Position numbers and translations under genes: made by a program
Notes under the pieces: model-generated
Told to the model about the DNA's origin: nothing
Database searches by the model: none
The model's input: the letters and a program-made list of their open reading frames with translations, nothing else
In this document: positions 10,185 through 63,532 of the stretch, in pieces
Layout: every line of letters starts with the position of its first letter
Position numbering within the stretch: position 1 is the stretch's first letter
NCBI GenBank assembly: GCA_037893245.1
Contig: JBAIAA010000750.1
Span: forward strand, 248,001-312,000
Direction: 5' to 3'
DNA from: Crossaster papposus
Taxonomy: Eukaryota; Echinodermata; Asteroidea; Velatida; Solasteridae
Length of the DNA: 64,000 nucleotides

Positions 10185-10227
10185 CAAAAATATGGAACGC
10201 CAAAGAGGCATAAACCCCGTTCAACGC

Positions 10228-11018
10228 ATCGATCGGTCTTTTACATCGACCGATCGGTCTTTTACATCGACCGATCGGTCTTTTACATCGACCGATCGAT
10301 TTTTTGCATCGACCGATCGGTCTTTTACATCGACCTATCGGTCTTGTACATCGATCGATCGTTTTTTTACATCGACCGATCGGTCTTTCTACCGATCGGT
10401 CTTTTACATCGACCGATCGGTCTTTCTACCGATCGGTCTTTTACATCGACCGATCGGTCTTTTACATCGACCGATCGGTCTTTTACATCGACCGATCGGT
10501 CTTTTACATCGACCGATCGGTCTTTTACATCGACCGATCGATTTTTTGCATCGACCGATCGGGGGGGGGGGGGGGGGGTGACCACCACTTTTACATCGAC
10601 CTATCGGTCTTGTACATCGATCGATCGTTCTTTTACATCGACCGATCGGTCTTTCTACCGATCGGTCTTTTACATCGACCGATCGGTCTTTTACATCGAC
10701 CGATCGGTCTTTCTACCGATCGGTCTTTTACATCGACCGATCGGTCTTTTACATCGACCGATCGGTCTTTCTACCGATCGGTCTTTTACATCGACCGATC
10801 GGTCTTTTACATCGACCGATCGGTCTTTCTACCGATCGGTCTTTTACATCGACCGATCGGTCTTTTACATCGACCGATCGGTCTTTCTACCGATCGGTCT
10901 TTTACATCGACCGATCGGTCTTTCTACCGATCGGTCTTTTACATCGACCGATCGGTCGTTGCCATCGACCGATCGGTCGTTGCCATCGACCGATCGGTCG
11001 TTGCCATCGACCGATCGA
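10228..11018 (+). repeat. Palindromic satellite array, left arm: GACCGATCGGTC with 21-bp and 16-bp spacing
   Basis: The self-complementary core GACCGATCGGTC repeats about 40 times. Long units (21 bp, spacer TTTTACATC) alternate with short ones (16 bp, spacer TTTCTAC) in a pattern that itself recurs. The last three units use the spacer GTTGCCATC. A run of 18 G at 10561-10578 followed by GTGACCACCACTTTTACATC interrupts the array, and a second series begins after it. Long open frames reading (Ser-Thr-Asp-Arg-Ser-Phe-Thr)n arise because the repeat lacks stops. Confidence 0.95.
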
Positions 11019-11267
11019 TGAAAAAAGAGGCATAAATCCGACCAACCTTGTTGACGTACGTGTACATGTACACAATCTTGGCCTATCTTTCATTGTGTAT
11101 CTGAATAGTTAAAAAACCTACGGTTGTCGGGAATTTGCTTGCAAGACATGCAGTGCTCAAGGAGACCATTTCACGAGGGGACCGTGCAGTGGTCAGTCCA
11201 TTTTCTTAACTGGTCGTTGATAAATAGCATCAGCGGCCTTCTCCGACAACGCTAAAAGTGGTGGTCA

Positions 11268-11298
<31 letters not shown>

Positions 11299-11496
11299 CC
11301 CCGCCAGGCGTAACACAGACCATAATTATGCCAAATACACTGAAAGGGAAACTCTACCCTTTTTGGCAGTAAATATACAAACAAAAGGGGTTCTCCAAAA
11401 TTTGTTATCATTTATTATTTCTGGTTTATTAAAAAAAAAAATGGAAGCAGCCAAAAGCGGAAATAAAATGGCTTAAATAAAACAGAGTAGTATTTT

Positions 11497-13137
11497 TTAT
11501 GAAATTTAGTAAATCGTTTTGTTTAAGCCATTTTATTTCAGCTTTTGGCTGCGACATTTTTTTTTTTAAAATAAACCAGAAATAATAAATGATAACAAAT
11601 TTTGGAGAACCCCTTTTGTTTGTATATTTACTGCCAAAAGGGTAGAGTTTCCCTTTCAGTGTATTTGGCATAATTATGGTCTGTGTTACGCCTGGCGGGG
11701 GGAGGGGGGGGGGTTTGACCACCACTTTTGGCGTCGTCGGAGAAGGCCGCTGAGGCTATTTATCAATCAACGACCAGTTAAGAAAATGGACTGACCACTG
11801 CACGGTCCCCTCGTGAAATGGTCTCCTTGAGCACTGCATGTCTTGCAAGCAAATTCCCGACAACCGTAGGTTTTTTAACTATTCAGATACACAATGAAAG
11901 ATAGGCCAAGACCAAACAAACTCGATTGAAAGTACTAAAACGTTAGGTTATAAATTAATTTAAAAACAAAGTAGCGTCTTAGCTAACACAATTTGTACAC
12001 AAATATGCCAACTCTATTATTATGTACACGCGAAGTTTGATTGTACACGAACCACGATATACGTTGGGTTGCTCGGCTGCCGCGGGCTCGTGGCGACACT
12101 GTTTAATGTGCATTATTGACTCGGTAATTAACGAGCTACGTAGGCGTAGCGGGATTTAAGAGATATTCAATGTGTCAATGATAAAACCAAGGAAATAATG
12201 TAATGGATAGAACACGATATTGTGATGTGTGCGGATGGATATGGGAAACCATGGAGGAATAAGAACAGGTGAAGGAAGTGGGGGAGTTGGGGGGGGGGGG
12301 GGGGGGGGGGGTCATGTTTGAGTACCACCGTTTATAACAAAAATCTGTAGGAATTAGGAACCACTGATTAAGGCTAACATAGGGCGGAGCACGTAAACAA
12401 TTAGTTGAAAACAAAATGCAGGTAGTATACACCATTGGTAATTGCTTGAATTATCATGAATGGGTAGATTTGGGGGGTTGTATTTCATAGTAAATATCGT
12501 TTAACTGACTTTTCCGAAGTTTTACAATCATGGATGCCGAGAAAAGCACGAAAAACGGCGTTTGTTTTCAACCGGGGTCGAGCAGTTATTCTTATGTTAT
12601 CTTTGTTTTTTCGCTCTCGCCGTCTGGCGAGAGCGAATTTTTCTTTATAAAATTCATTTTTTTGGAATAATTACAGGATATCTAGCGCAATCCTTTTGCT
12701 GAATGCCTAGAATCATTATTTACTTTCAATTGAGTAAGGTATTTCTTAATAATTCAGTAGTAAATATTTTCGATATCTGCAAATGGTGTATACTACCTTT
12801 AACAAGAATTTTATAGGAATATAATTATTTTGTTCCCAAAACTTTTCCACCTGGTCTAAACGGAGGGCACATGCATGCTAATATTAATTAGGCTTGGCTG
12901 TATATGTCAGGCAGGATGATTTTGTTAACTTCATGATAGTATTTAATATCAATCAAATCATCTTTCTTTTGAGACATACAAATCCTACATCTTAAAAAAA
13001 ACCAAAAAAACTCCCAAACTTAACGTCCCTGCCCAGGATCGTGGGGTCGTGTGGCGTGTGAATCGTAGGGTAAAGGTTTTTTTAGAAAGGGTTTAGGGTT
13101 TTTAAACTTAAAAAGTTTGTTTTTCTGTGGCAATTTT
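11497..13137 (+). repeat. 1.64-kb tandem unit, copy 1
   Basis: The unit starts at TTTATGAAATTTAGTAAATC and recurs 1641 bp later with few changes. Its first 400 bp is the inverted counterpart of the left arm just before 11497, so the junction at about 11440-11560 is a palindrome (AAGCCATTTTATTTC against GAAATAAAATGGCTT). After GATAGGCCAAGA (ends 11911) it enters sequence absent from the arms. It contains a poly-G run at about 12291-12311 and a smaller inverted-repeat element at 12420-12798. Confidence 0.9.
12420..12798. mobile_element. Small inverted-repeat element AGGTAGTATACACCATT, copy inside unit 1
   Basis: Ends are AGGTAGTATACACCATTGG and AATGGTGTATACTACCT. The 379-bp interior contains a perfect GCTCTCGCC/GGCGAGAGC hairpin. 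A second copy lies in unit 2 (14058-14436), and diverged relatives in the opposite orientation are found at 49662-50038 and about 63165-63375. Non-coding. Confidence 0.7.
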
Positions 13138-14775
13138 TTATGAAATTTAGTAAATCGTTTTGTTTAAGCCATTTTATTTCAGCTTTTGGCTGCGACAGTT
13201 TTGTTTTTTTAATAAACCAGAAATAATAAATGATAACAAACTTTGGAGAACCCCTTTTGTTTGTATATTTACTGCCAAAAAGGGTAGAGTTTCCCTTTCA
13301 GTGTATTTGGCATAATTATGGTCTGTGTTACGCCTGGCGGGGGGAGGGGGGGGGGTGACCACCACTTTTAGCGTCGTCGGAGAAGGCCGCTCATGCTATT
13401 TATCAATCAACGACCAGTTAAGAAAATGGACTGACCACTGCACGGTCCCCTCGTGAAATGGTCTCCTTGAGCACTGCATGTCTTGCAAGCAAATTCCCGA
13501 CAACCGTAGGTTTTTTAACTATTCAGATACACAATGAAAGATAGGCCAAGACCAAACAAACTCGATTGAAAGTACTAAAACGTTAGGTTATAAATTAATT
13601 TAAAAACAAAGTAGCGTCTTAGCTAACACAATTTGTACACAAATATGCCAACTCTATTATTATGTACACGCGAAGTTTGATTGTACACGAACCACGATAT
13701 ACGTTGGGTTGCTCGGCTGCCGCGGGCTCGTGGCGACACTGTTTAATGTGCATTATTGACTCGGTAATTAACGAGCTACGTAGGCGTAGCGGGATTTAAG
13801 AGATATTCAATGTGTCAATGATAAAACCAAGGAAATAATGTAATGGATAGAACACGATATTGTGATGTGTGCGGATGGATATGGGAAACCATGGAGGAAT
13901 AAGAACAGGTGAAGGAAGTGGGGGAGTTGGGGGGGGGGGGGGGGGGGGGTCATGTTTGAGTACCACCGTTTATAACAAAAATCTGTAGGAATTAGGAACC
14001 ACTGATTAAGGCTAACATAGGGCGGAGCACGTAAACAATTAGTTGAAAACAAAATGCAGGTAGTATACACCATTGGTAATTGCTTGAATTATCATGAATG
14101 GGTAGATTTGGGGGGTTGTATTTCATAGTAAATATCGTTTAACTGACTTTTCCGAAGTTTTACAATCATGGATGCCGAGAAAAGCACGAAAAACGGCGTT
14201 TGTTTTCAACCGGGGTCGAGCAGTTATTCTTATGTTATCTTTGTTTTTTCGCTCTCGCCGTCTGGCGAGAGCGAATTTTTCTTTATAAAATTCATTTTTT
14301 TGGAATAATTACAGGATATCTAGCGCAATCCTTTTGCTGAATGCCTAGAATCATTATTTACTTTCAATTGAGTAAGGTATTTCTTAATAATTCAGTAGTA
14401 AATATTTTCGATATCTGCAAATGGTGTATACTACCTTTAACAAGAATTTTATAGGAATATAATTATTTTGTTCCCAAAACTTTTCCACCTGGTCTAAACG
14501 GAGGGCACATGCATGCTAATATTAATTAGGCTTGGCTGTATATGTCAGGCAGGATGATTTTGTTAACTTCATGATAGTATTTAATATCAATCAAATCATC
14601 TTTCTTTTGAGACATACAAATCCTACATCTTAAAAAAACCCAAAAAAACTCCCAAACTTAACGTCCCTGCCCAGGATCGTGGGGTCGTGTGGCGTGTGAA
14701 TCGTAGGGTAAAGGTTTTTTTAGAAAGGGTTTAGGGTTTTTAAACTTAAAAAGTTTGTTTTTCTGTGGCAATTTT
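13138..14775 (+). repeat. 1.64-kb tandem unit, copy 2
   Basis: Near-identical to copy 1 (1638 against 1641 bp). The main differences are lengths of homopolymer runs, as expected for a recent duplication. It carries the same small inverted-repeat element at 14058-14436. Confidence 0.9.
14058..14436. mobile_element. Small inverted-repeat element AGGTAGTATACACCATT, copy inside unit 2
   Basis: Same element as 12420-12798, duplicated together with the 1.64-kb unit. Length is identical (379 bp). Confidence 0.7.
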
Positions 14776-15193
14776 TTATGAAATTTAGTAAATCGTTTTG
14801 TTTAAGCCATTTTATTTCAGCTTTTGGCTGCGACAGTTTTGTTTTTTTAATAAACCAGAAATAATAAATGATAACAAACTTTGGAGAACCCCTTTTGTTT
14901 GTATATTTACTGCCAAAAAGGGTAGAGTTTCCCTTTCAGTGTATTTGGCATAATTATGGTCTGTGTTACGCCTGGCGGGGGGAGGGGGGGGGGGGGGTGA
15001 CCACCACTTTTAGCGTCGTCGGAGAAGGCCGCTCATGCTATTTATCAATCAACGACCAGTTAAGAAAATGGACTGACCACTGCACGGTCCCCTCGTGAAA
15101 TGGTCTCCTTGAGCACTGCATGTCTTGCAAGCAAATTCCCGACAACCGTAGGTTTTTTAACTATTCAGATACACAATGAAAGATAGGCCAAGA
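14776..15193 (+). repeat. 1.64-kb unit, truncated copy 3 leading into the right arm
   Basis: The first about 418 bp of the unit is repeated up to GATAGGCCAAGA. It then passes into the arm sequence (TTGTGTACATGTACACGTAC) instead of the unit interior. This is therefore the true element arm, and copies 1 and 2 are internal. Confidence 0.85.
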
Positions 15194-15304
15194 TTGTGTA
15201 CATGTACACGTACGTCAACAAGGTTGGTCGGATTTATGCCTCTTTGGCGCGGGGTACTTTTCATCGGTTTTTTTTCATCGGTCTTTTTTCATCGGTCTTT
15301 TTTT

Positions 15305-15636
15305 CATCGATCGGTCGATGGCAACGACCGATCGGTCGATGTAAAAGACCGATCGGTAGAAAGAAAGACCGATCGCTCGATGTAAAAGACCGATCGGTCG
15401 ATGTAAAAGACCGATCGGTCGATGTAAAATACCGATCGGTCGATGTAAAAGACCGATCGGTAGAAAGACCGATCGGTCGATGTAAAAGACCGATCGGTCG
15501 ATGTAAAAGACCGATCGGTAGAAAGACCGATCGGTCGATGTAAAAGACCGATCGGTCGATGTAAAAGACCGATCGGTAGAAAGACCGATCGGTCGATGTA
15601 AAAGACCGATCGGTCGATGCAAAAGACCGATCGATG
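15305..15636 (-). repeat. Palindromic satellite array, right arm
   Basis: Inverted counterpart of the array at 10228-11018, with the same GACCGATCGGTC core and the same 21/16-bp spacing, but only about 16 cores. One core is changed to GACCGATCGCTC and one spacer lacks the usual G. The two arms therefore differ about 2.4-fold in array length. Confidence 0.95.
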
Positions 15637-15678
15637 CGTTGAACGGGGTTTATGCCTCTTTGGCGTTCCATACAAAAA

Positions 15679-27685: not shown

Positions 27686-27699
27686 ATAACAAGCTTGTT

Positions 27700-28590
27700 T
27701 GTCCGGTACCGGAATTGATGGCAGGGAGAGTTTGCTTGTTTGTCCGGTCCTGGAATTGATGGCAGGAAGAGTGTGCTCATTTGTCCGGTCCCGGAATTGA
27801 TGGCAGGAAGAGTGTGCTTGTTTGTCCGGTCCTGGAATTGATGGCAGGAAGAGTGTGCTTGTTTGTCCGGTCCTGGAATTGATGGCAGGAAGAGTGTGCT
27901 TGTTTGTCCGGTCCCGGAATTGATGCAGGAAGAGTGTGCTTGTTTGTCCGGTCCCGGAATTGATGGCAGGAAGAGTGTGCTTGTTTGTCCGGTCCTGGAA
28001 TTGATGGCAGGAAGAGTGTGCTTGTTTGTCCGGTCCCGGAATTGATGGCAGGAAGAGTGTGCTTGTTTGTCCGGTCCTGGAATTGATGGCAGGAAGAGTG
28101 TGCTTGTTTGTCCGGTCCTGGAATTGATGGCAGGAAGAGTGTGCTTGTTTGTCCGGTCCCGGAATTGATGGCAGGAAGAGTGTGCTTGTTTGTCCGGTCC
28201 TGGAATTGATGGCAGAAAGAGTGTGCTTGTTTGTCCGATCCTGGAATTGATGACAGGAAGAGTGTGCTTGTTTGTCCGGTCCTGGAATTGATGGCAGGAA
28301 GAGTGTGCTTGTTTGTCCGGTCCTGGAATTGATGGCAGGAAGAGTGTGCTTGTTTGTCCGGTCCCGGAATTGATGACAGGAAGAGTGTGCTTGTTTGTCC
28401 GGTCCCGGAATTGATGGCAGGAAGAGTGTGCTTGTTTGTCCGGTCCTGGAATTGATGGCAGGAAGAGTGTGCTTGTTTGTCCGGTCCTGGAATTGATGGC
28501 AGGAAGAGTGTGCTTGTTTGTCCGGTCCTGGAATTGATGGCAGAAAGAGTGTGCTTGTTTGTCCGGTCCTGCATGGAATTGATGACAGGA
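27700..28590 (+). repeat. 41-bp minisatellite, about 21-22 units
   Basis: The unit GGTCCTGGAATTGATGGCAG followed by GAAGAGTGTGCTTGTTTGTCC repeats with mostly single-base changes (CCTGG against CCCGG at one site, GGCAG against GACAG). One unit lacks a G (near 27923) and one has an extra GCAT (near 28570). Because 41 is not a multiple of three and the unit has no stop, several minus-strand frames stay open for hundreds of codons. I regard those as artefacts. Confidence 0.95.
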
Positions 28591-28599
28591 AGAGTGTGT

Positions 28600-33062: not shown

Positions 33063-33105
33063 GTCTTGCCGTGGTGGAGCCGGGTGCATCTCTCCTTGCA
33101 ACAGG

Positions 33106-34005
33106 TCTGCTGTTCACATTCAAATGAGATTTCGTTCGGTCGTAATGCTGTTCAGTTCTGCTGTTCACATTCAAATGAGATTTCGTTCGGTCGTAATGCT
33201 GTTCAGTTCTGCTGTTCACATTCAAATGAGATTTCGTTCGGTCGTAATGCTGTTCAGGTCTGCTGTTCACATTTAAATGAGATTTCGTTGGGTCGTAATG
33301 CTGTTCAGGTCTGCTGTTCACATTCAAATGAGATTTCGTTCGGTCGTAATGCTGTTCAGGTCTGCTGTTCACATTCAAATGAGATTTCGTTCGGTCGTAA
33401 TGCTGTTCAGTTCTGCTGTTCACATTCAAATGAAATTTCGTTCGGTCGTAATGCTGTTCAGGTCTGCTGTTCACATTTAAATGAGATTTCGTTTGGTCGT
33501 AATGCTGTTCAGGTCTGCTGTTCACATTCAAATGAGATTTCGTTCGGTCGTAATGCTGTTCAGGTCTGCTGTTCACATTTAAATGAGATTTCGTTGGGTC
33601 GTAAGGCTTTACAGGTCTGCTGTTCACATTTAAATGAGATTTCGTTTGGTCGTAATGCTGTTCAGGTCTGCTGTTCACATTCAAATGAGATTTCGTTCGG
33701 TCGAAATGCTGTTCAGGTCTGCTGTTCACATTCAAATGAGATTTCGTTCGGTCGTAATGCTGTTCAGGTCTGCTGTTCACATTCAAATGAGATTTCGTTT
33801 GGTCGTAATGCTGTTCAGGTTGCTGCTGTTCACATTCAAATGAGATTTCGTTCGTTCGTAATGCTATTCAGGTCTGCTGTTCACATTCAAATGAGATTTC
33901 GTTTGGTCGTAATGCTGTTCAGGTTGCTGCTGTTCACATTCAAATGAGATTTCGTTCGGTCGTAATGCTATTCAGGTCTGCTGTTCACATTCAAATGAGA
34001 TTTGG
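33106..34005 (+). repeat. 51-bp minisatellite, about 17-18 units
   Basis: The unit TCTGCTGTTCACATTCAAAT followed by GAGATTTCGTTCGGTCGTAATGCTGTTCAGG is 51 bp, exactly 17 codons. Two units have an extra GCTGC-type insertion of 3 bp (about 33820 and 33925). Frames on both strands stay open: 33051-33947 plus (17-residue VCCSHSNEISFGRNAVQ) and 32956-33786 minus (17-residue RPEQHYDRTKSHLNVNS). The substitutions do not favour either frame, so I do not call a gene. Confidence 0.95.
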
Positions 34006-34637
34006 TTTGATCATAGACCACACTGCTGTACCTTTGGTTACATTGCCGGACAACTGACCGGACAACCAAACCCTTGCTATATGTTTGACCAGGGCCCCGT
34101 CCAACTCCCTGGTAAATACACACATTTATAAAGTACTCGTAACGACGGAAATTTACCTTTCTCTTACAAAGTTGTTTTTGTTTGCTTAAAGTTAGGGCCT
34201 GATGTTTCAATCCTTGCAGGATCTTTCTTTTAAGATGAAAGTATATGTGAAACTTCTAGAAAGTGCCGGTGTGAACATTAACAAAAGGTGACCATATTTA
34301 GTTTCAATGTCCCCAAACTTGAAACACGAATTGGAGAATGAAAATCGCAACATGAAAATATTTCTGTCTGAAATACTCCAAAAGTCGAGAAAATAGCATT
34401 TTAAGCAATTTTGATTGTAACAATCGAAATTAAGGACAATGTCAGTGTTTACACGCTGAAAGTTTGCACGGATTTTTAATATTTTCTCCTGACTTAGATG
34501 AAGGATTAAGCCTAAATTTTTACGGGTTTGTTTTATCATGTATATATTGAATCACACAAAGTAAAAACACTGCACTGTCAGCTTTACTAAGTCTATATTT
34601 AACCTTTAAACAACCAACGGTATGCCTTTAATTTAAA

Positions 34638-49537: not shown

Positions 49538-49661
49538 GGCTCGTCCTCTAATCTTAATCGGTTAGATTCATATCTAACACGCGTGGCCCGACCACTGCGG
49601 AACTTCATTTGTCACTCATGCCCGCCCTCTGAACTTAATCAGTTACATTCAAATGTAACAC

Positions 49662-50038
49662 GCCATTTGCAGATATCGAAGACAAAAATGTACTACCGAA
49701 TTGTTAAGAAATATCTTACTCATCTGAAAGTAAATAAAGATTCTAGGCATCCAGCAAAATGATTGCGCTAGATATCCTGTATAGTAATTATTCTGAAAAA
49801 TAAAATTCTATAAAGAAAAATTTGCAATCGCCGGACGGCGATCGGGAGAAAACACAAATAACATAAGAATAACTCCTCGACGCCGGTCGAAAATAAACGC
49901 TGTTTTCCGTGCTTTTCTCGGCATTTATGACTGTAAAACTTCGGACAGGTCAGTTAAAAGATATTTACTATAAAATACAACCTTCCAAATCCGCCCATTC
50001 ATGATAATTCAAGCATTTACCAATGGTGTATACTACCT
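49662..50038 (-). mobile_element. Small inverted-repeat element, relative of 12420-12798
   Basis: In opposite orientation it contains CCATTTGCAGATATCGAA, GCGCTAGATATCCTGT, ATCGCCGGACGGCGAT and ACCAATGGTGTATACTACCT. The left end has lost the GGTAGTATAC part. TAACACG lies on both sides, within a few bases of the ends, as if duplicated on insertion into the array. Confidence 0.65.
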
Positions 50039-50351: not shown

Positions 50352-50700
50352 TATAGGGTGGCATGGGTGGCTTGTGTGTAAAGCGCTTGCCTTTCACCAA
50401 TGTGGCCCGGGTTCGATTCCCGGCCGGACCATAATGTGAGTAGAGTTGTGCGTTGGTTCTCTCCTGTGCCACGAGGGTTTTTTCCAGGTCATCCGGTTTT
50501 CCTCCCTCCTGAAAAATTAAACACTTTCGATCTCAGGCTGTGCTCCGTAGTCATAATGAGTCGATGTGGCCGGCTGCCATAGGCGCCTTTACGTGCCAGC
50601 GACTCGACCACGTTGTAGCCGCGTCCTTCGCAATTCAGCACACCAGCTGCGAGTAAGGATGATTAGCCTCCCCAATTATTATTATTATATTATTATCTTA
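50352..50700 (+). repeat. tRNA-derived SINE inserted in the array
   Basis: The head GGTGGCATGGGTGGCTTGTG and the B box GGTTCGATTCC with a paired T stem (CCGGG/CCCGG) resemble a tRNA. A body with GCCACGAGGGTTTTTTCCAG and CATCCGGTTTTCCTCCCTCC follows, and the 3' end is an (ATT)n tail at about 50678-50697. It splits an array unit at GATCT/TAA. Confidence 0.75.
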
Positions 50701-50744
50701 ACGATGTTAGTTTTAAATTCAAGACGCAGGGCCTGTCCACTAGT

Positions 50745-53015
50745 TCACTTTTTGCTCCAACAAAGTTATTGCCTTGGTCCGACCTGATTTGCCGAACCTT
50801 GCCTCGTATGGCGATAAAACATCGCAGTCCATTGATGAAGGCATCAGTGGAGAGGTCATCCAGTAACTCTACGTGAACCGCTCTGGAGCACAAACAGGTG
50901 AACAGTATAGGCCGTATCTCTTGAACTCCTTGCGGCATTGCTTGGTGATAAAGGGACCGAAACAGTCCATGCACAGAATAAGAATGGCGGAGATGATTCC
51001 ACACGATCCTCAGGGAGATCTGCCATCTTCTGTTCTTGAGTGGGTCGCCGGTTTCTCCTATACAGACCACACATTTACGAATGATATCCGAAACCATCCT
51101 TCCACCGCTGATGATCCAAAACCCGTTCGCTCTGATTTCATTCCGATCCCACGGTCTTGGTGGTGGACTTTATGATGGTAGTGATTAGCGATGAGTCTGG
51201 ACATGTGGCTGTCCTTGGCTAGTATTGCCGGGTGCTTGACAAAAAACAAGAGTGACGAATTCCTCAGGCGACCACCTACACGCAGACTCCCTAAGTCATC
51301 AGTGAAGGGATCTAAAATTCTGGACTCGTGTATCAGGTAGACTGGAGGGGAGTCGATGCGGTGAGCCCTCTTGAAGCATGATCAGCGGGGTTGAATTCAG
51401 ACTCGACGTAGAACCACTGATCAGGATATGATTGTGCTGTCTCTGATTATTTGTACACGGTTGGCCACAAATGTATGAAAACGTCGCGCCTCGTTGTTGA
51501 TATACCCTATAGACTACCTGAGAATCGGTCCACAATTTCTTCCACATTTGAGAGCTGGAGCTCTTCAAGACCTTGCTGATTTTCACCGACACCACAGCTG
51601 CAGCTAACTTAAGGCGGGGGATTGTTGTGACCTCAGTCGGGGCCACTCGAGACTTGCCCATCAGGAGTGCATAGTATATCCTGTCTTACTGATCCTGAAT
51701 TCTGAGGTAGGAGCATCGACCATAACCCAAAGTGCTGCCGTCTGAGAAGTGGCAAAGCTGTGTAGACTTAACTTTCCTAAGACCACTCGGCTTCACGCAG
51801 CGTGGAATCCGAATTGCTGCAATGTTGGGAAGGTCCGCCATCCACTTCTCCCACCGTGGTCATAACTCTTTAGGCAAAGGATCATCCCGTCCACTTCCGT
51901 TGCGACACATGTGCTGCAGCAATACTTTACCTATGGAGCCAGAAATCCCAAGGGGTCATAAACCGATGCAACCATAGACAGAATTCCCCTACGGGTCAAC
52001 GCTGCCTCCTTGGTCTCAGTTCTGAAGAAGAATTCATCCTTCTCCACATCCCATTGAATCCCAAGCGTGGAGGACATATGCAGGTTATCTTTATTGAGGT
52101 TAACTTCCTTAACAGATGCAGCGCGTTTCTTGGCAGGGACAGATTCCAACACCTCGACTGTTGGAGATGAACCTGTGTAGATGTATGCCGCCTTTGCTAC
52201 ACAGATCCCTAGTCTCTTGAATGAGCTGAATTGCTTCATCGTTGGTTTCTATACTGATCAATCCATCGTCTACGTAAAAATGGTGATTGATAAACAGGGC
52301 TGCAGAGGGAAACTCCTTCTCATATTTCTTGGCCAAAAACTTGAGACTGTAGTTGCCACCCCCCCCCCCCCCCCCCCCCACCCCCGCCAGGAGATGATGA
52401 AGCTCCAAATAGGTGTGCCTTCATCCTGTACTCTGTTGGCTCCTGTGTGAGAAATCTCGGTCTTCTTGTCTGACAATGAACTGATGGAACATTCTTTCGA
52501 TGTCGCAAACTATAGCTATACTGGATGACTCCTGAAGCGGCTCAGTACTCCTACTAGGGCATTCGTCAGATCGGGGGCACTCAGAAGATGGTCATTATAG
52601 GAAGTGCCTCTGTGCTGACTTGAGCAATCGAACACAACTCGAATCCTTTGGCTTTCTAGGGTGGTACACACCGTGACGAGGGATGTACTACATGGCTTGG
52701 GCTTCCTCTGCATCACCATGCTCGATGACATCCTGAACAAACTTAACGTAGTCATCACGATACTTGGAGTCTCTAGCTAACTTGCGCTTGAGATGGCCTA
52801 GGCGAAGGAATGCTTGCGAGCTTTGTTAACCGGCAAGCCATGACGAAAGCGGAAAGGCAAGGGCATTTGAAGATGGCCATCCTCAAGCTGCGTGATGGAA
52901 GGCTCTAGAATATGCAGAAATTTGATATCTTCCTATGACACTTTACCCCCCTTGCCATCCGAAAAGTCACTTTCAAGCACCGACAATATCTTTCCGAAGC
53001 AATGCCTTGAAACCA
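50745..53015 (-). pseudogene. BEL/Pao LTR-retrotransposon pol remnant (reverse transcriptase, RNase H, integrase)
   Basis: Minus-strand blocks appear in pol order. A lead-in segment at 53010-52790 comes first. The reverse transcriptase follows at about 52760-52110, with [20 protein letters not shown] and the catalytic YVDD box in HHFYVDDGL. RILS-type connector LTRRGILSMVASVYDPLGF is at 51931-51990. RNase H-like sequence is at 51300-51660 (VTTIPRLKLAAAVVSVKI, WTDSQVV). The integrase zinc and core region at 50750-51100 has VHVELLDDLSTDAFINGL and RSDQGNNFVGA. The frame is broken by several shifts and stops and carries a poly-G run at 52361-52379. LTRs and gag were not found. The domain order and wording fit BEL/Pao; the copy is dead. 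Confidence 0.85.
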
Positions 53016-56118: not shown

Positions 56119-58668
56119 AGTCCGTGGGCCAGAGGGGGCTACCGTGCACCCCCCCTATGATCCTACTTCTTGGGTGTCATCTTGTTCATTGGGATCCATA
56201 ATATCAGAAAAAAGATGTTCCCAAGAAAAAAAACTCATTTGGACACTGTTTATTTGCTCCTTATTTGAAGATATGTAAAAATTTCAGTTTTTCGTGTTTT
56301 GAACACTTTCTTAGGGTTCGTGAATTATGTGCTTACATTTTACTCTGTTTCTCAGCAGATATAACTCTAATCTCCACCAAATTAATACACAATCTTCATA
56401 AATCATACAACAATGGGTAGACAAAATTATTTTAATATGTTTTATTGTCTTCTATTATTAATGACGTCATAAATTTGCATATAATTAAATATGCAAATTT
56501 TCATCTCAAAATCTGTCAAAATCACCTGGAAGTTGTATTTTGTCTGCTATAATCATGAAATAAGTTTGCTAACCCCCTAATTTCGTGTAAAATTATTCAT
56601 TGATATGTTATCTGATGTTTCCTGCAAAAAAATAGTATCAGTCAACTCGTAATTAACCCCCTCCCCCGCATTACGGTTACTACATTCTGTATATTTAATG
56701 CACATTCAATCAAAGTTCCTGTTTATAAGAACAAAAGCTCGACAAGCAGTATTTTAATGACTGTTAGGGCTAGCCTGTTAACATCAAATTAAATCAAATC
56801 AAATTCCAGTTCTCCTGAGAATACACATAACATATGCACACTATTTGAAATGCAATGTACTTTCTTTTCCCTTTATGATATCATGAAGGGAAGTACTCTG
56901 TACATCTTTGTTATTGTGAAGTAAAATGATATCTAAAATGACGGTGATCTTCTTTCACTGTCCGTAGGATGATTTCTATCCCTATTATGTTTATAAATTC
57001 AATACAGTATATTACCGCATACAATATGGTTTTTTGATAGTTATAAACATGTATCAGTCTGAAAGGGGGGCTCAGACCAAGCCAACTTATTCAACTGTTG
57101 GTCATTAATCGCATTATATGCTATAACACAGGGTTGATGATTATACAAACGAATGAACGAACGTATACGGGGTGCAGTTTCATGAATTTCAACTGACATG
57201 ACACACTGAGCAAAACCAATCAGTGAATGAATCTGATTATAATCATGGTATATAACAAAGACTGATATTTAAATGTTTAACAACACCTTAAATGCACTAC
57301 GTTTCTATATTTCTATTCATACTTTTTCAGAAACACAGGTACATTTTTTCACTAGCACAAAATATTATGTAACTGCAACAGTGACAGAATGTTTTCCTCA
57401 AGTCCTTCATCCAAGGATAAACACATAAATGGCTTATCAAACTCAAATTTAAGGATGACATAATGAGTATTGTTGAAACTTTGCATTCTTTGAAAATACA
57501 TTTTAACGATGTGACCACTTTGGTGTCGACAATCTTTCTAGTTAATCTTATGCAGTTATCTGTTTATCGTACATAATGTACATTTATTATTTCAAGACGG
57601 AAGAATCAAGGGAAAGAAAATTAGATATCACAAGAAATCATTACTGAAATTCCTTATACAGCATTGAGTGTCCTTCAGTTATAAGTGATGAACCAGATTT
57701 ATATTGCTAATATTTACTTAAAATTTGATGGTTTGTCATTTTCTATGGGGCATGTTATTAACATTAATTATCACAAAAGCAAAACATGTCATACTGTACT
57801 ACTGAAACAAATAATGAAGCCTTTTCAGACTTCATCTTCGCTATCTGCGTCTTGGTCCGAGTCATAGTACTGGACATCATGATCTGAATCGTAGTCGTCA
57901 TCACTTGAGTCATCGTCTCCCATACAGTCAAGAACATCTACCAACCTTGGGGGCAGAATGTCTCTCGTTGACCATAGTGGTTCTAATTTGTCTAAATTCT
58001 TTGTCCAACCATGACCATCTGTTGGTGGTGGAACGATGGGTTTAGGCTCATGAGCCCTCTTCCATATCGCCACCTGGTAGTTCACTCTCCTGATGTGTTG
58101 TTGAAGACTGTCCTTGCATGGAGGAAATAAAGACAAGTCTACGTGGACCACAGCCTGAGAAAGCATGTAGTCCAAGGAGTGCTGTGCAATATTCAGGGGA
58201 GGACTGCTTGGCAAAATGAGTGACATCAATGAGCCGCTGCTTGTTTCCTCTCCCTGTGTGGAAGAGTGATGTCTGGAGTGAGATGCGCGTAATGAAGCAA
58301 TATGAAAAATATATCGGTGTCTGGGCTTTTGATCTGCACATGATCATAGCCTTGCTCCTTATCGTATTGGCAGTAGAGGATCACGCGTGAATCTGTTACT
58401 TCTTGGGTTGAGTTGAAAGATGGAATCTCAGAACGCAGTGTCTCTCTCCCATTCTGAGAAGTGAGCAGTTGGGCTTCTCCTTTGATGAATATCATCTTTT
58501 TCCCATACAGCCTCTTAGCCATGTCATGCTCACTCCAGACATCCAGAATAACTTGAATAAGTTGTTTCTTATTCTCATCATTCGTTAGGAACTGCTTCCA
58601 GTCAGGTGGTCTTTTGGTTTTGCCTCCTGTAATTATCCTCTTCTCTGTACACCCACGCCGTGTCCGTC
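56119..58668 (-). mobile_element. Left arm of a 5.7-kb inverted duplication
   Basis: Starts AGTCCGTGGGCCAGAGGGGG and is the near-perfect reverse complement of 59048-61782 over its whole length, apart from two large gaps. Shared landmarks include GGTAGCCCCCTCTGG, TGTTCCCAAG, AACCCCCTAATTTCGTG, CATTACGGTTACTAC and GCTATCTGCGTC. No duplication of target bases was recognised at the outer ends. Confidence 0.9.
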
Positions 58669-59035
58669 CGTTCACTTGACTTCACAGAGTCTGGCTTGTA
58701 CATGTCTGTGCTGAAGATGACATCGCATTTGGATGACACTACATTGTGAATTTTGATGCAAATATCGTGGAAGTTTGCAGGCATCTCTTTTAGGTAGTAG
58801 AAAACAGCATTACCATCTTCCACTACCAAGGTCTTGTCAGTGGGTGGAGGTTGCGAGTTCTCTACATCCTTCAGAAGATACAGTGTAGGCCCTTAGCTTT
58901 ATCTGTCTTAGCAAAGAAGTTGTCTGATGTTCCAATTGAGTAGGGAACAGGATCAAAGAATATTTCATGATTTCTCGTAGATCAAGTTGTGTGCATTTGA
59001 AGAGTCTAAAGATATTCCCTGGCCCTCAACCGCAG
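57825..59035 (-). pseudogene. PIN/XPG-like nuclease family gene, left copy (minus strand), broken
   Basis: N-terminal pieces at 59035-58860 (RLFKCTQLDLREIMKYSL and IGTSDNFFAKTDKAKG in different frames) are followed by LVVEDGNAVFYYLKEMPANF, then PPDWKQFLTNDENKKQLIQV, DSRVILYCQYDKEQGYDHVQ and IKSPDTDIFFILLHY. It ends in the acidic tail DDDYDSDHDVQYYDSDQDAD. The order (Asp-rich strand, SPDTD, then GCD helix-hairpin) matches the FEN1/XPG-type PIN fold by family knowledge. This copy has a 4-bp duplication (GGAC, near 58664), a 5-bp deletion near 58265 and a 248-bp deletion at about 58155 that removes everything after SGC, including the hairpin. It cannot make a full protein. Confidence 0.75.
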
Positions 59036-59047
59036 AAGCCCTTGCCG
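58669..59047. other. Spacer of the inverted duplication
   Basis: Single-copy 379-bp centre between the two arms. It carries the N-terminal segment of the left, minus-strand gene, which therefore has no counterpart on the right. Confidence 0.8.
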
Positions 59048-61782
59048 GACACGGCGTGGGTGTGCAGAGAAGAGGATGATTACAGGAGGCAAAACCAAAA
59101 GACCACCTGACTGGAAGCAGTTCCTAACGAATGATGAGAATAAGAAACAACTTATTCAAGTTATTCTGGATGTCTGGAGTGAGCATGACATGGCTAATGT
59201 GCAGATCAAAAGCCCAGACACCGATATATTTTTCATATTGCTTCATTACGCGCATCTCACTCCAGACATCACATTACTCTTCCACACAGAGAGAGGAAGC
59301 AAGCAGCGGCTCATTGATGTCACTCATTTTGCCAAGCAGTCCTCCCCTGAATATTGCACAGCACTCCTTGGACTACATGCTTTCTCAGGCTGTGACTCCA
59401 CAAGCGCCTTTAAAGGAATTGGCAAAGTCAAGCCTATCAAACTGTTGCAGCAACGCAACAAATTTGTCAAACCTCTTGCAGGACTTGGTGATTCGTGGAC
59501 TGTACCAGAGGAGTTGATGTCCAACCTGGAGGAATTTACATGTGCCCTGTATGGGAAACCAAGGTTTACTGATGTAGATGAGGCTAGATTTGCTCTGATG
59601 AAGAAAAAGTGTAAAAGTGATGGAGAGAAAATCAGCAAGTCGGTCCACGTAGACTTGTCTTTATTTCCTCCATGCAAGGACAGTCTTCAACAACACATCA
59701 GGAGAGTGAACTACCAGGTGGCGATATGGAAGAGGGCTCATGAGCCTAAACCCATCGTTCCACCACCTACAGATGGTCATGGTTGGACAAAGAATTTAGA
59801 CAAATTAGAACCACTATGGTCAACGAGAGACATTCTGCCCCCAAGGTTGGTAGATGTTCTTGACTGTATGGGAGACGATGACTCAAGTGATGACGACTAC
59901 GATTCAGATCATGATGTCCAGTACTATGACTCGGACAAAGACGCAGATAGCGAAGATGAAGTCTGAAAAGGCTTCATTATTTGTTTCAGTAGTACAGTAT
60001 GACATGTTTTGCTTTTGTGATAATTAATGTTAATAACATGCCCCATAGAAAATGACAAACCATCAAATTTTAAGTAAATATTAGCAATATAAATCTGGTT
60101 CAACACAGAAAGATCACGTGCTGTTAGTTTTGTCACGTGTAGGTGTTTACTTCCTTACACCTTTACTCCATTCATGTAAACAAGAGTTGATTAAAAATAT
60201 ATATATGTTCTATCACTTATAACTGAAGGACACTCAATGCTGTATAAGGAATTTCAGTAATGATTTCTTGTGATATCTAATTTTCTTTCCCTTGATTCTT
60301 CCGTCTTGAAATAATAAATGTACATTATGTACGATAAACAGATAACTGCATAATATTAACTAGAAAGATTGTCGACACCAAAGTGGTCACATCGTTAAAA
60401 TGTATTTTCAAAGAATGCAAAGTTTCAACAATACTCATTATGTCATCCTTAAATTTGAGTTTGATAAGCCATTTATGTGTTTATCCTTGAATGAAGGACT
60501 TGAGGAAAACATTCTGTCACTGTTGCAGTTACATAATATTTTGTGCTAGTGAAAAAATGTACCTGTGTTTCTGAAAAAGTATGAATAGAAATATAGAAAC
60601 GTAGTGCATTTAAGGTGTTGTTAAACATTTAAATATCAGTCTTTGTTATATACCATGATTATAATCAGATTCATTCACTGATTGGTTTTGCTCAGTGTGT
60701 CATGTCAGTTGAAATTCATGAAACTGCACCCCGTATACGTTCATTCATTCGTTTGTATAATCATCAACCCTGTGTTATAGCATATAATGCGATTAATGAC
60801 CAACAGTTGAATAAGTTGGCTTGGTCTGAGCCCCCCTTTCAGACTGATACATGTTTATAACTATCAAAAAGCCATATTGTATGCGGTAATATACTGTATT
60901 GAATTTATAAACATAATAGGAATAGAAATCATCCTACGGACAGTGAAAGAAGATCACTGTCATTTTATATATCATTTTACTTCACAATAACAAAGATGTA
61001 CAGAGTACTTCCCTTCATGATATCATAAAGGGAAAAGAAAGTACATTGCATTTCAAATAGTGTGCATATGTTATGTGTATTCTCAGGAGAACTGGAATTT
61101 GATTTGATTTAGTTTAATGTTAACAGGCTAGCCCTAACAGTCATTAAAATACTGCTTGTCGAGCTTTTGTTCTTATAAACAGAAACTGTGATTGAATGTG
61201 CATTAAATATACAGAATGTAGTAACCGTAATGCGGGGGAGGGGGTTAATTACGAGTTGACTGATACTATTTTTTTTGCAGGAAACATCAGATAACATATC
61301 AATGAATAATTTTACACGAAATTAGGGGGTTAGCAAACTTATTTCATGATTATAGCAGACAAAATACAACTTCCAGGTGATTTTGACAGATTTTGAGATG
61401 AAAATGTGCATATTTAATTATATGCAAATTTATGATGTCATTAATAATAGAAGACAATAAAACATATTAAAATAATTTTGTCTACCCATTGTTGTATGAT
61501 TTATGAAGATTGTGTATTGATTTGGTGGAGATTAGAGTTATATCTGCTGAGAAACAGGGTAAAATGTAAGCACATAATTCACGAACCCTAAGAAAGTGTT
61601 CAAAACACGAAAAACTGAAATTTTTACATATCTTCAAATAAGGAGCAAAAAAACAGTGTCCAAATGAGTTTTTTTCTTGGGAACATCTTTTTTCTGATAT
61701 TATGGATCCCAATGAACAAGATGACACCCAAGAAGTAGGATCATAGGGGGGGTGCACGGTAGCCCCCTCTGGCCCACGGACT
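59048..61782 (+). mobile_element. Right arm of the 5.7-kb inverted duplication
   Basis: Reverse complement of 56119-58668 with few substitutions. It ends CCCCCTCTGGCCCACGGACT. Relative to the left arm it keeps a 248-bp segment (59394-59641) and lacks a 174-bp segment (left 58341-58515). Confidence 0.9.
59076..59966 (+). CDS. PIN/XPG-like nuclease family protein, right copy, 296 codons, internally deleted and 5' truncated
   Basis: An open frame runs without a stop from ITGGKTKRPPDWKQFLTN through IKSPDTDIFFILLHYAH (residues about 45-60), LHAFSGCDSTSAFKGIGK (about 105-122), WTVPEELMSNLEEFTCALYG, and HVDLSLFPPCKDSLQQHIRR to the acidic tail DDDSSDDDYDSDHDVQYYDS. GCDSTSAFKGIGK lines up with the GCDY..IRGIG hairpin of FEN1/XPG nucleases, and SPDTD with a metal-binding acidic strand; both are inference from pattern. 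Compared with the left copy it lacks 58 codons (174 bp, in frame) between EHDMA and VQIKSPD, and it lacks the N-terminus. The ATG at 59076 is simply the first in the conserved region and may not be a natural start. It belongs to a multicopy family of uncertain function in invertebrates and fish. Confidence 0.6.
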   Translation: MITGGKTKRPPDWKQFLTNDENKKQLIQVILDVWSEHDMANVQIKSPDTDIFFILLHYAHLTPDITLLFHTERGSKQRLIDVTHFAKQSSPEYCTALLGLHAFSGCDSTSAFKGIGKVKPIKLLQQRNKFVKPLAGLGDSWTVPEELMSNLEEFTCALYGKPRFTDVDEARFALMKKKCKSDGEKISKSVHVDLSLFPPCKDSLQQHIRRVNYQVAIWKRAHEPKPIVPPPTDGHGWTKNLDKLEPLWSTRDILPPRLVDVLDCMGDDDSSDDDYDSDHDVQYYDSDKDADSEDEV

Positions 61783-63164: not shown

Positions 63165-63378
63165 CAAGAACAAAAAGAACAACTGCCCAACGCCGGTTGA
63201 AAACGAACGCCATTTTCCTTGCTCTTTTCTCAGCATCCATGATTGTAGAACTTCAGACAGGTCGATTAAACTATACTATAAAAAAAACTATACTATTTAC
63301 TATAAAATACAACCAACTCCCCCAAATCCACCCATTCCTGATAATTCAAGCAGTTACCAATGGTGTATTATACCTTTA
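63165..63378 (-). mobile_element. Partial relative of the AGGTAGTATACACCATT element
   Basis: CAACGCCGGTTGAAAACGAA, TTCAGACAGGTCGATTAAAC, CCTGATAATTCAAGCAGTTA and CCAATGGTGTATTATACCTT parallel the right half of 49662-50038. The other end is missing, and a 20-bp ACTATA duplication is inserted. Confidence 0.65.
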
Positions 63379-63532
63379 AGTGTGGATAATGGGGAGAGTG
63401 ACCGGTCACATAGTACGAAAAATAGGAGAAAAATAGGAGCCAGATAGAAAAAGTAGAAAAAGTAGGAATACTAAAAATATTTCAACTGGATTAACAGGGG
63501 TGACATTAGACAGACATGTTAGTCACGGTTAC

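Follow-up and report, generated by a model that had tools for sequence, protein, structure and literature searches.

Minisatellite-armed fold-back transposon of the sea star Crossaster papposus: probable placement with the IS3EU/GingerRoot elements

What kind of transposon carries minisatellite in arms that fold back on each other, and which transposase would move it? The question is raised by a locus in the sea star Crossaster papposus (assembly GCA_037893245.1, contig JBAIAA010000750.1), where a 64,000-nucleotide stretch (positions 248,001 to 312,000 of the contig, here called the window) holds a fold-back element with a flanking duplication at window positions 10185-15678. A first-pass annotation, made from the letters of the window alone, had drawn attention to this element. 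Here, the element is interpreted as a DNA transposon of the IS3EU/GingerRoot type that is non-autonomous and would be moved by the transposase of a longer relative, a reading to which we assign a probability of about 0.9.

Results

Limits of the Window Element

The element spans positions 10191-15672 (5482 bp) and is bounded by inverted ends of the form TATGG...CCATA. The left terminal inverted repeat (TIR; 10191-10242, plus strand) starts with TATGGAACGCCAAAGAGGCATAAA and the right one (15621-15672, minus strand) finishes with ...GGCGTTCCATA; the two are identical over 52 nt and show a single mismatch when the comparison is extended to 93 nt. Directly outside them, at 10185-10190 and 15673-15678, stands the target-site duplication (TSD) CAAAAA, to which no strand is assigned. 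The duplication is exactly 6 bp long, and lengths of 4, 5, 7, 8, 9, and 10 bp gave mismatches. Two random 6-mers in the window would match with a chance of ~4e-4, and the frequency of CAAAAA itself is ~1e-3. The window was also scanned for TAYGG...CCRTA pairs (76 starts, 80 ends) separated by 60-15000 bp, with minimum scores of 12 matching positions out of 16 in the ends and 5 out of 6 in the duplication, and 10191-15672 was the sole pair that passed. The first-pass annotation, which described a complete mobile unit of the fold-back type flanked by a 6-bp duplication, is confirmed in each of these parts, and the window holds a genuine copy of a transposon.

Copies of the Ends in the Genome

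A 20-nt end sequence had 263 exact matches in the 1.02-Gb genome (134 forward and 129 reverse), compared with 0 for the reversed control. The first 100 match places were listed, and 72 of these could be paired by eye into 36 inverted pairs. Of the pairs, 34 (0.24-7.2 kb) were taken whole, and the two longest (24.6 and 22.6 kb) were each taken as two 10-kb pieces; the other 28 places on the list and the 163 matches beyond it, which include the two ends of the window copy, lie outside the pair study. Selection by exact ends under-samples divergent copies, and the 34 pairs are no independent test of the TATGG..CCATA termini by which they were chosen.

When the window copy was added to the 34 pairs, an exact 6-bp duplication was found in 28 of 35 copies. 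These copies represent 28 insertion sites, of which 21 show an exact duplication, five are one base off (L009, L016, L018, L027, and L038, flanks read by eye), and two show none. Shifting the boundary by 1-10 bp in either direction abolished the match in all 35 copies, except for one copy at -1. When left and right flanks were taken from different copies, 32 of 1190 combinations matched, the number predicted by two groups of copies sharing a site (30 and 2 matches). Inspection of the six duplicated bases by eye revealed no obvious target motif. The listing of inverted end pairs and flanking duplications that had been proposed as a check on the original description therefore bears it out, and the lack of a consistent 6-bp duplication, named there as the result that would speak against it, was not encountered.

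Perfect inverted runs in the 34 pairs ranged from 28 to 173 nt, with the shortest (28-29 nt) in L014, L015, and L019. The last of these, 7.2 kb long and devoid of a TSD, contains open reading frames (ORFs) that read as reverse-transcriptase/endonuclease-like, as judged without a domain scan, and looks like two ends flanking other DNA. Searches of viral contigs and of prokaryote genomes with the end motif yielded 0 matches each, as did a search of viral contigs with the satellite.

Placement by Termini and by a Longer Relative

Non-autonomous elements are classed largely by their termini and TSD, with positions 1 to 11 being aligned (PMC4455052). IS3EU elements are described as having TA..TA termini and a TSD of usually 6 bp; they comprise 45 Repbase families, 17 of them autonomous, and GingerRoot belongs to the same lineage (PMC10045372). 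Fungal IS3EU elements are reported to have a 6-bp TSD, TIRs of >30 bp, and ends TAYGG..CCRTA (PMC12730594). The window element shows each of these features, its TIR being 52 nt, in a comparison of termini that covers the five published positions. The ends, which the first-pass annotation did not recognise, fit this published signature together with the TSD. At the level of the superfamily they can be assigned to a catalogued group, and it is to that extent that ends of a catalogued family, the other result named as speaking against the original description, were encountered.

One of the two long pairs (C106:1239925-1264543, 24.6 kb) has ends, satellite arms, and an inner motif as in the window copy, with GTACAC on both sides. 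Open segments on its minus strand match the Pfam family rva_4 in order, covering residues 2-21, 21-117, and 113-186 of 194 with E-values of 2.9e-6, 4.1e-43, and 2.8e-21, respectively. A match to rve (6.7e-6) fell below the curated cut-off, as did a weak HTH_23 match (5.5e-5) in a segment upstream, the region in which IS3EU/GingerRoot transposases carry no HHCC zinc motif, and the gene model is incomplete. The putative second D and the E of the transposase are separated by 34 residues. The segments probably represent one gene with introns, and the element is a probable autonomous relative. An autonomous copy with the same ends had been suggested as something to look for, and C106 is a candidate for it, with segments of a DDE integrase-type transposase lying between the same ends as those of the window element. 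The window element's own blocks B and C, described below, match C106 subterminal DNA at about 81-95%, as would be expected if the window family derives from an element of this type that lost internal sequence.

Genome matches to a 104-residue core of this transposase numbered at least 133 (150 of 183 candidates scored), with four loci at 100%; a further 14 core matches, aligned with the first, showed 61-80% identity to it. At the three other 100% loci, ends were sought in 11 short stretches. At C838, one end was found past the second of two transposase copies together with a fused copy-to-copy junction, and the outer left end was not found in the stretches read; at C216, the left end with satellite was found and the right end was not. 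The two transposase-bearing copies of C838 (near 71340; L078 and L085) lie head to tail, 27487 bp apart, and the end-to-end junction between them is slightly shortened. Thirty loci at transposase matches (L047-L076, ~3 kb each) contained neither end nor CGATCGGT, a result that says little because the C106 ends lie >6 kb from the core. A PDB profile search with the core gave 0 matches. The second long pair (C211:69934-92532, 22.6 kb; L045 and L046) was rejected as an autonomous copy, more than half of the 20 kb read being simple repeats. Its interior is swollen with GT-type and TGTACC-type repeats, and it shares the duplication AGGCTA with L037 and L042.

Several observations weigh against the placement. 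Two of the 28 sites (L019 and L024) lack the duplication, and five carry one mismatch in it. The transposase of C106 is seen as separate open segments, and the middle 4.8 kb of the 24.6-kb element lies between the two 10-kb pieces that were read. Both ends and a TSD were found at one of the four loci with an identical core (C106), the others offering one end or a copy-to-copy junction. Finally, the evidence for the assignment consists of the termini, the length of the TSD, and a DDE domain of the integrase type rather than of a tree.

Arms of comparable anatomy occur in fold-back systems of other origin, among them the sea urchin TU elements, which carry short tandem repeats in their arms and make an 8-bp TSD. 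A Mutator- or P-type element such as Foldback, Tetris, or Galileo would share with the window element its long arms with internal tandem repeats. Tetris of Drosophila virilis is further alike, as described in PMC4079207 (where sea urchin foldbacks are also mentioned), in that its copies lack conserved ORFs and have a non-coding middle; it differs in its 220-bp units and in a TSD of 8-10 bp, against 6 bp here, and its authors suggest Mutator. Galileo likewise has long arms with tandem repeats, which are reported to contain transposase-binding sites, and differs in belonging to the P superfamily with its THAP domain (PMC3688188). No THAP domain was detected in the four C106 segments scanned, the transposase segments matching rva_4/rve. 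Foldback/Mutator and Galileo were rejected on these grounds, the integrase type of the relative's transposase counting against both, and an origin of this kind is considered extremely improbable.

An affiliation with another group that duplicates 6 bp is scarcely more credible. Polinton/Maverick elements have a 6-bp TSD, with a protein-primed DNA polymerase and capsid genes between their TIRs, and end in AG..CT, which differs from TATGG..CCATA; the other Polinton genes were not searched for here. For hAT6, 6-bp TSDs have been described (PMC12730594), whereas the segments scanned in the relative gave rva_4/rve integrase matches and no hAT match. The termini of the window element, moreover, fit IS3EU. 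Both families were rejected on termini and on transposase type in the segments scanned.

Minisatellite Arms and Their Common Core

From the outside inward, each arm consists of the end motif TATGGAACGCCAAAGAGGCATAAACCCC, minisatellite, a partial second end motif (AAAGAGGCATAAATCC), and block B. The minisatellite is composed of 21-bp and 16-bp units built around ACCGATCGGT and having CGATCGGT in common; it occupies 10230-11017 (plus strand, 788 bp) in the left arm and, as the inverse, 15308-15633 (minus strand, 326 bp) in the right arm. The claim that the arms are built from satellite is well borne out by the count of ACCGATCGGT, which occurs 44 times in the window (30 in the left arm and 14 in the right; 0.02 expected) and never outside the arms. 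The right arm also has, at its inner edge, a short array of 14-bp units (15258-15309, minus strand, 52 bp). The inner end-motif copies are found at 11024-11060 (plus strand), together with arm-specific sequence next to block B, and at 15233-15251 (minus strand; CGCGCCAAAGAGGCATAAA). Reading frames of at least 150 amino acids in the element are translated satellite.

The order of variant units close to the inner edge is similar by eye in both arms, and the satellite would therefore belong to the ancestral end, arm length having changed since. At 10561-10593 (plus strand), the left satellite is interrupted by poly-G plus GTGACCACCAC, which matches the poly-G of block B at 97% (14979-15012) and, inversely, at 100% (11253-11285). 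This insertion probably arose by template switching between the fold-back arms.

Among the 35 copies, eight (L009, L011, L016, L018, L021, L023, L038, and L039) lack ACCGATCGGT and were treated as a second subfamily with 20-bp units. In the three of these that were read (L009, L011, and L021), the first 21 nt are as in the window copy and are followed by a different repeat, spaced mostly at 19-20 bp in L009 and L011. The 8-mer CGATCGGT occurred 821 times in subfamily 1 (54 arms), where shuffled sequence gave a mean of 6.1 and a maximum of 12, and 108 times in subfamily 2 (16 arms), where the shuffled mean was 0.4 and the maximum 2. It was present in 54 of 54 and 15 of 16 arms, respectively, and was the one clearly common 8-mer between the subfamilies, the next shared 8-mer being ~8 times rarer. 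On this basis, CGATCGGT is a candidate transposase-binding site. The pattern suggests that this IS3EU lineage may have turned its ends into multi-site transposase-binding arrays, with selection keeping the array of CGATCGGT and not the rest of the unit, an interpretation that we hold tentatively and at slightly less than even odds.

Two observations sit uneasily with such an array. Subfamily 2 is also rich in a core variant, CGAGCGGT, such that the 8-mer is not strictly kept, and L021 (241 bp), which has an exact TSD, holds ~nine degenerate units by eye, with one arm lacking CGATCGGT; long arrays would then not be indispensable, unless L021 shrank after insertion. Both also favour the alternative that the minisatellites have no role, being by-products of slippage or unequal exchange in fold-back DNA with CGATCGGT shared by descent only. 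The same may be said of the difference in arm length within the window copy and between copies, and of the poly-G insertion, which suggests that errors of this sort do happen in the element. Set against this, subfamilies whose units (21/16 bp and 20 bp) are otherwise unlike keep one 8-mer far above all others and in nearly every arm, and the binding sites in the arm repeats of Galileo (PMC3688188) provide a precedent. A minisatellite without function is a real possibility, which we nonetheless regard as rather doubtful.

Interior Blocks and the 1.64-kb Duplication

The interior is arranged as B, inverted B, C, inverted B, C, inverted B. The left copy of block B (11076-11483, plus strand) is the inverse of the other three and forms a near-palindrome with the second (11492-11911, minus strand); the third (13133-13551, minus strand) separates the two copies of block C, and the fourth (14771-15193, minus strand) lies in the right arm. 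All four look near-identical. Block C (11912-13132 and 13552-14770, both plus strand) gave no coding match, and its second copy belongs to a 1641-bp direct duplication. In agreement with the direct 1.64-kb copies originally noted for the centre, the B-C repeats at 11492-13551 and 13133-15193 are 99.1% identical over 2066 columns at an offset of 1641 bp.

The window has 121 ORFs with a length of 85 amino acids or more, and a Pfam scan covered 54 of them, including the three in the centre (91-108 amino acids), which were rescanned singly. These three gave no notable Pfam match (best E-value 0.058, below the cut-off), and no transposase-like domain was found in them. Nested within block C is a further repeat that starts with GGTAGTATACACCATT, present at 12420-12789 and 14058-14427 and, outside the element, in two further window copies (49660-50038 and 63175-63379; 86% and 77%) to which no target duplication could be assigned.

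The doubled centre had been regarded as part of the design of the element, a view that is not upheld by other copies at the same site. Both 80-bp flanks of the window copy are shared at 100% with L028-L031, L034, and L040. These six copies measure 3.72-3.74 kb, compared with 5.48 kb for the window copy alone. One of the six, L028, was mapped, and its B-C unit occurs once rather than twice. The flanks of L037 and L042 are likewise similar to each other, at 96-100%. We infer a single insertion that was later copied with its surroundings, the 1.64-kb duplication having followed in the window copy or in its assembly. Four of the same-site copies (L028-L031) lie on C156, ~260-270 kb apart with identical 80-bp flanks, and reflect either a large segment that was duplicated repeatedly or an artefact of the assembly.

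That the second 1.64-kb copy is an assembly error, with no real duplication behind it, is suggested by its restriction to one of seven same-site copies and by the long poly-G tracts and near-identical copies, which are hard to assemble. The two B-C copies differ, however, as their 99.1% identity indicates, and their poly-G tracts differ in length by eye, as in real paralogous copies. An error of this kind is considered unlikely.

Other Features of the Window

The window also contains a large near-perfect inverted repeat (56119-61782) with arms at 56119-57711 and 60190-61782 that are 98.5% identical, inward pieces at 95-99%, and long ORFs. Single scans of two of these ORFs gave no Pfam match. 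Tandem arrays of 906 bp each are present at 27693-28598 (41 bp x 22.0) and 33102-34007 (51 bp x 17.7). A BEL/Pao-like retroelement remnant at 50693-51685 is marked by matches to an integrase core (below cut-off) and to the Pao peptidase. One of the 54 scanned ORFs matches Pfam HTH_Tnp_4 (3.4e-6) and probably represents a further transposase remnant.

Discussion

The superfamily to which the window element is assigned is not new; the fold-back, minisatellite-armed form is a variant within it. The element agrees with IS3EU/GingerRoot in its ends, its TIR and TSD lengths, and the integrase-like DDE transposase of its same-ended relative, and differs in that its arms hold 0.3-0.8 kb of minisatellite and fold back, a form undescribed in the portions of the two sources that concern this group (PMC12730594, PMC10045372). 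Literature searches confined to open-licence papers found no description of a fold-back IS3EU element. Styx of Zymoseptoria, which its authors link to IS3EU, is similar in its 36-bp TIR and 6-bp TSD and different in being fungal and 7.9 kb long, with satellite arms unmentioned in the relevant part of that account (PMC10853768). Two oyster satellites are listed with the annotation DNA/IS3EU, from which it follows that a link between IS3EU and satellite DNA is not as such new.

The data can be accommodated by the following model. The DDE integrase-type transposase of the longer relative would recognise the TATGG...CCATA ends and move the window element in trans, and joining to the target across a 6-bp stagger would generate the 6-bp duplications. 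The arm repeats may act as repeated transposase-binding sites through their shared core CGATCGGT. Folding back of the DNA would at the same time favour template switching and unequal exchange in the arms and in the B/C blocks. Such events would account for the difference in length between the arms, the inserted poly-G, and the additional 1.64-kb copy.

Repeat-armed fold-back elements have been reported from the P group, and others have been assigned to Mutator; here, such arms are associated with a transposase of the integrase type. The existence of a transposase-bearing relative and of two arm subfamilies makes the question of binding by the arm repeats testable by comparison. If the interpretation of the arms is correct, an array of a core sequence would have been kept in the manner proposed for Galileo, although the superfamily concerned is integrase-like and unrelated to that of Galileo.

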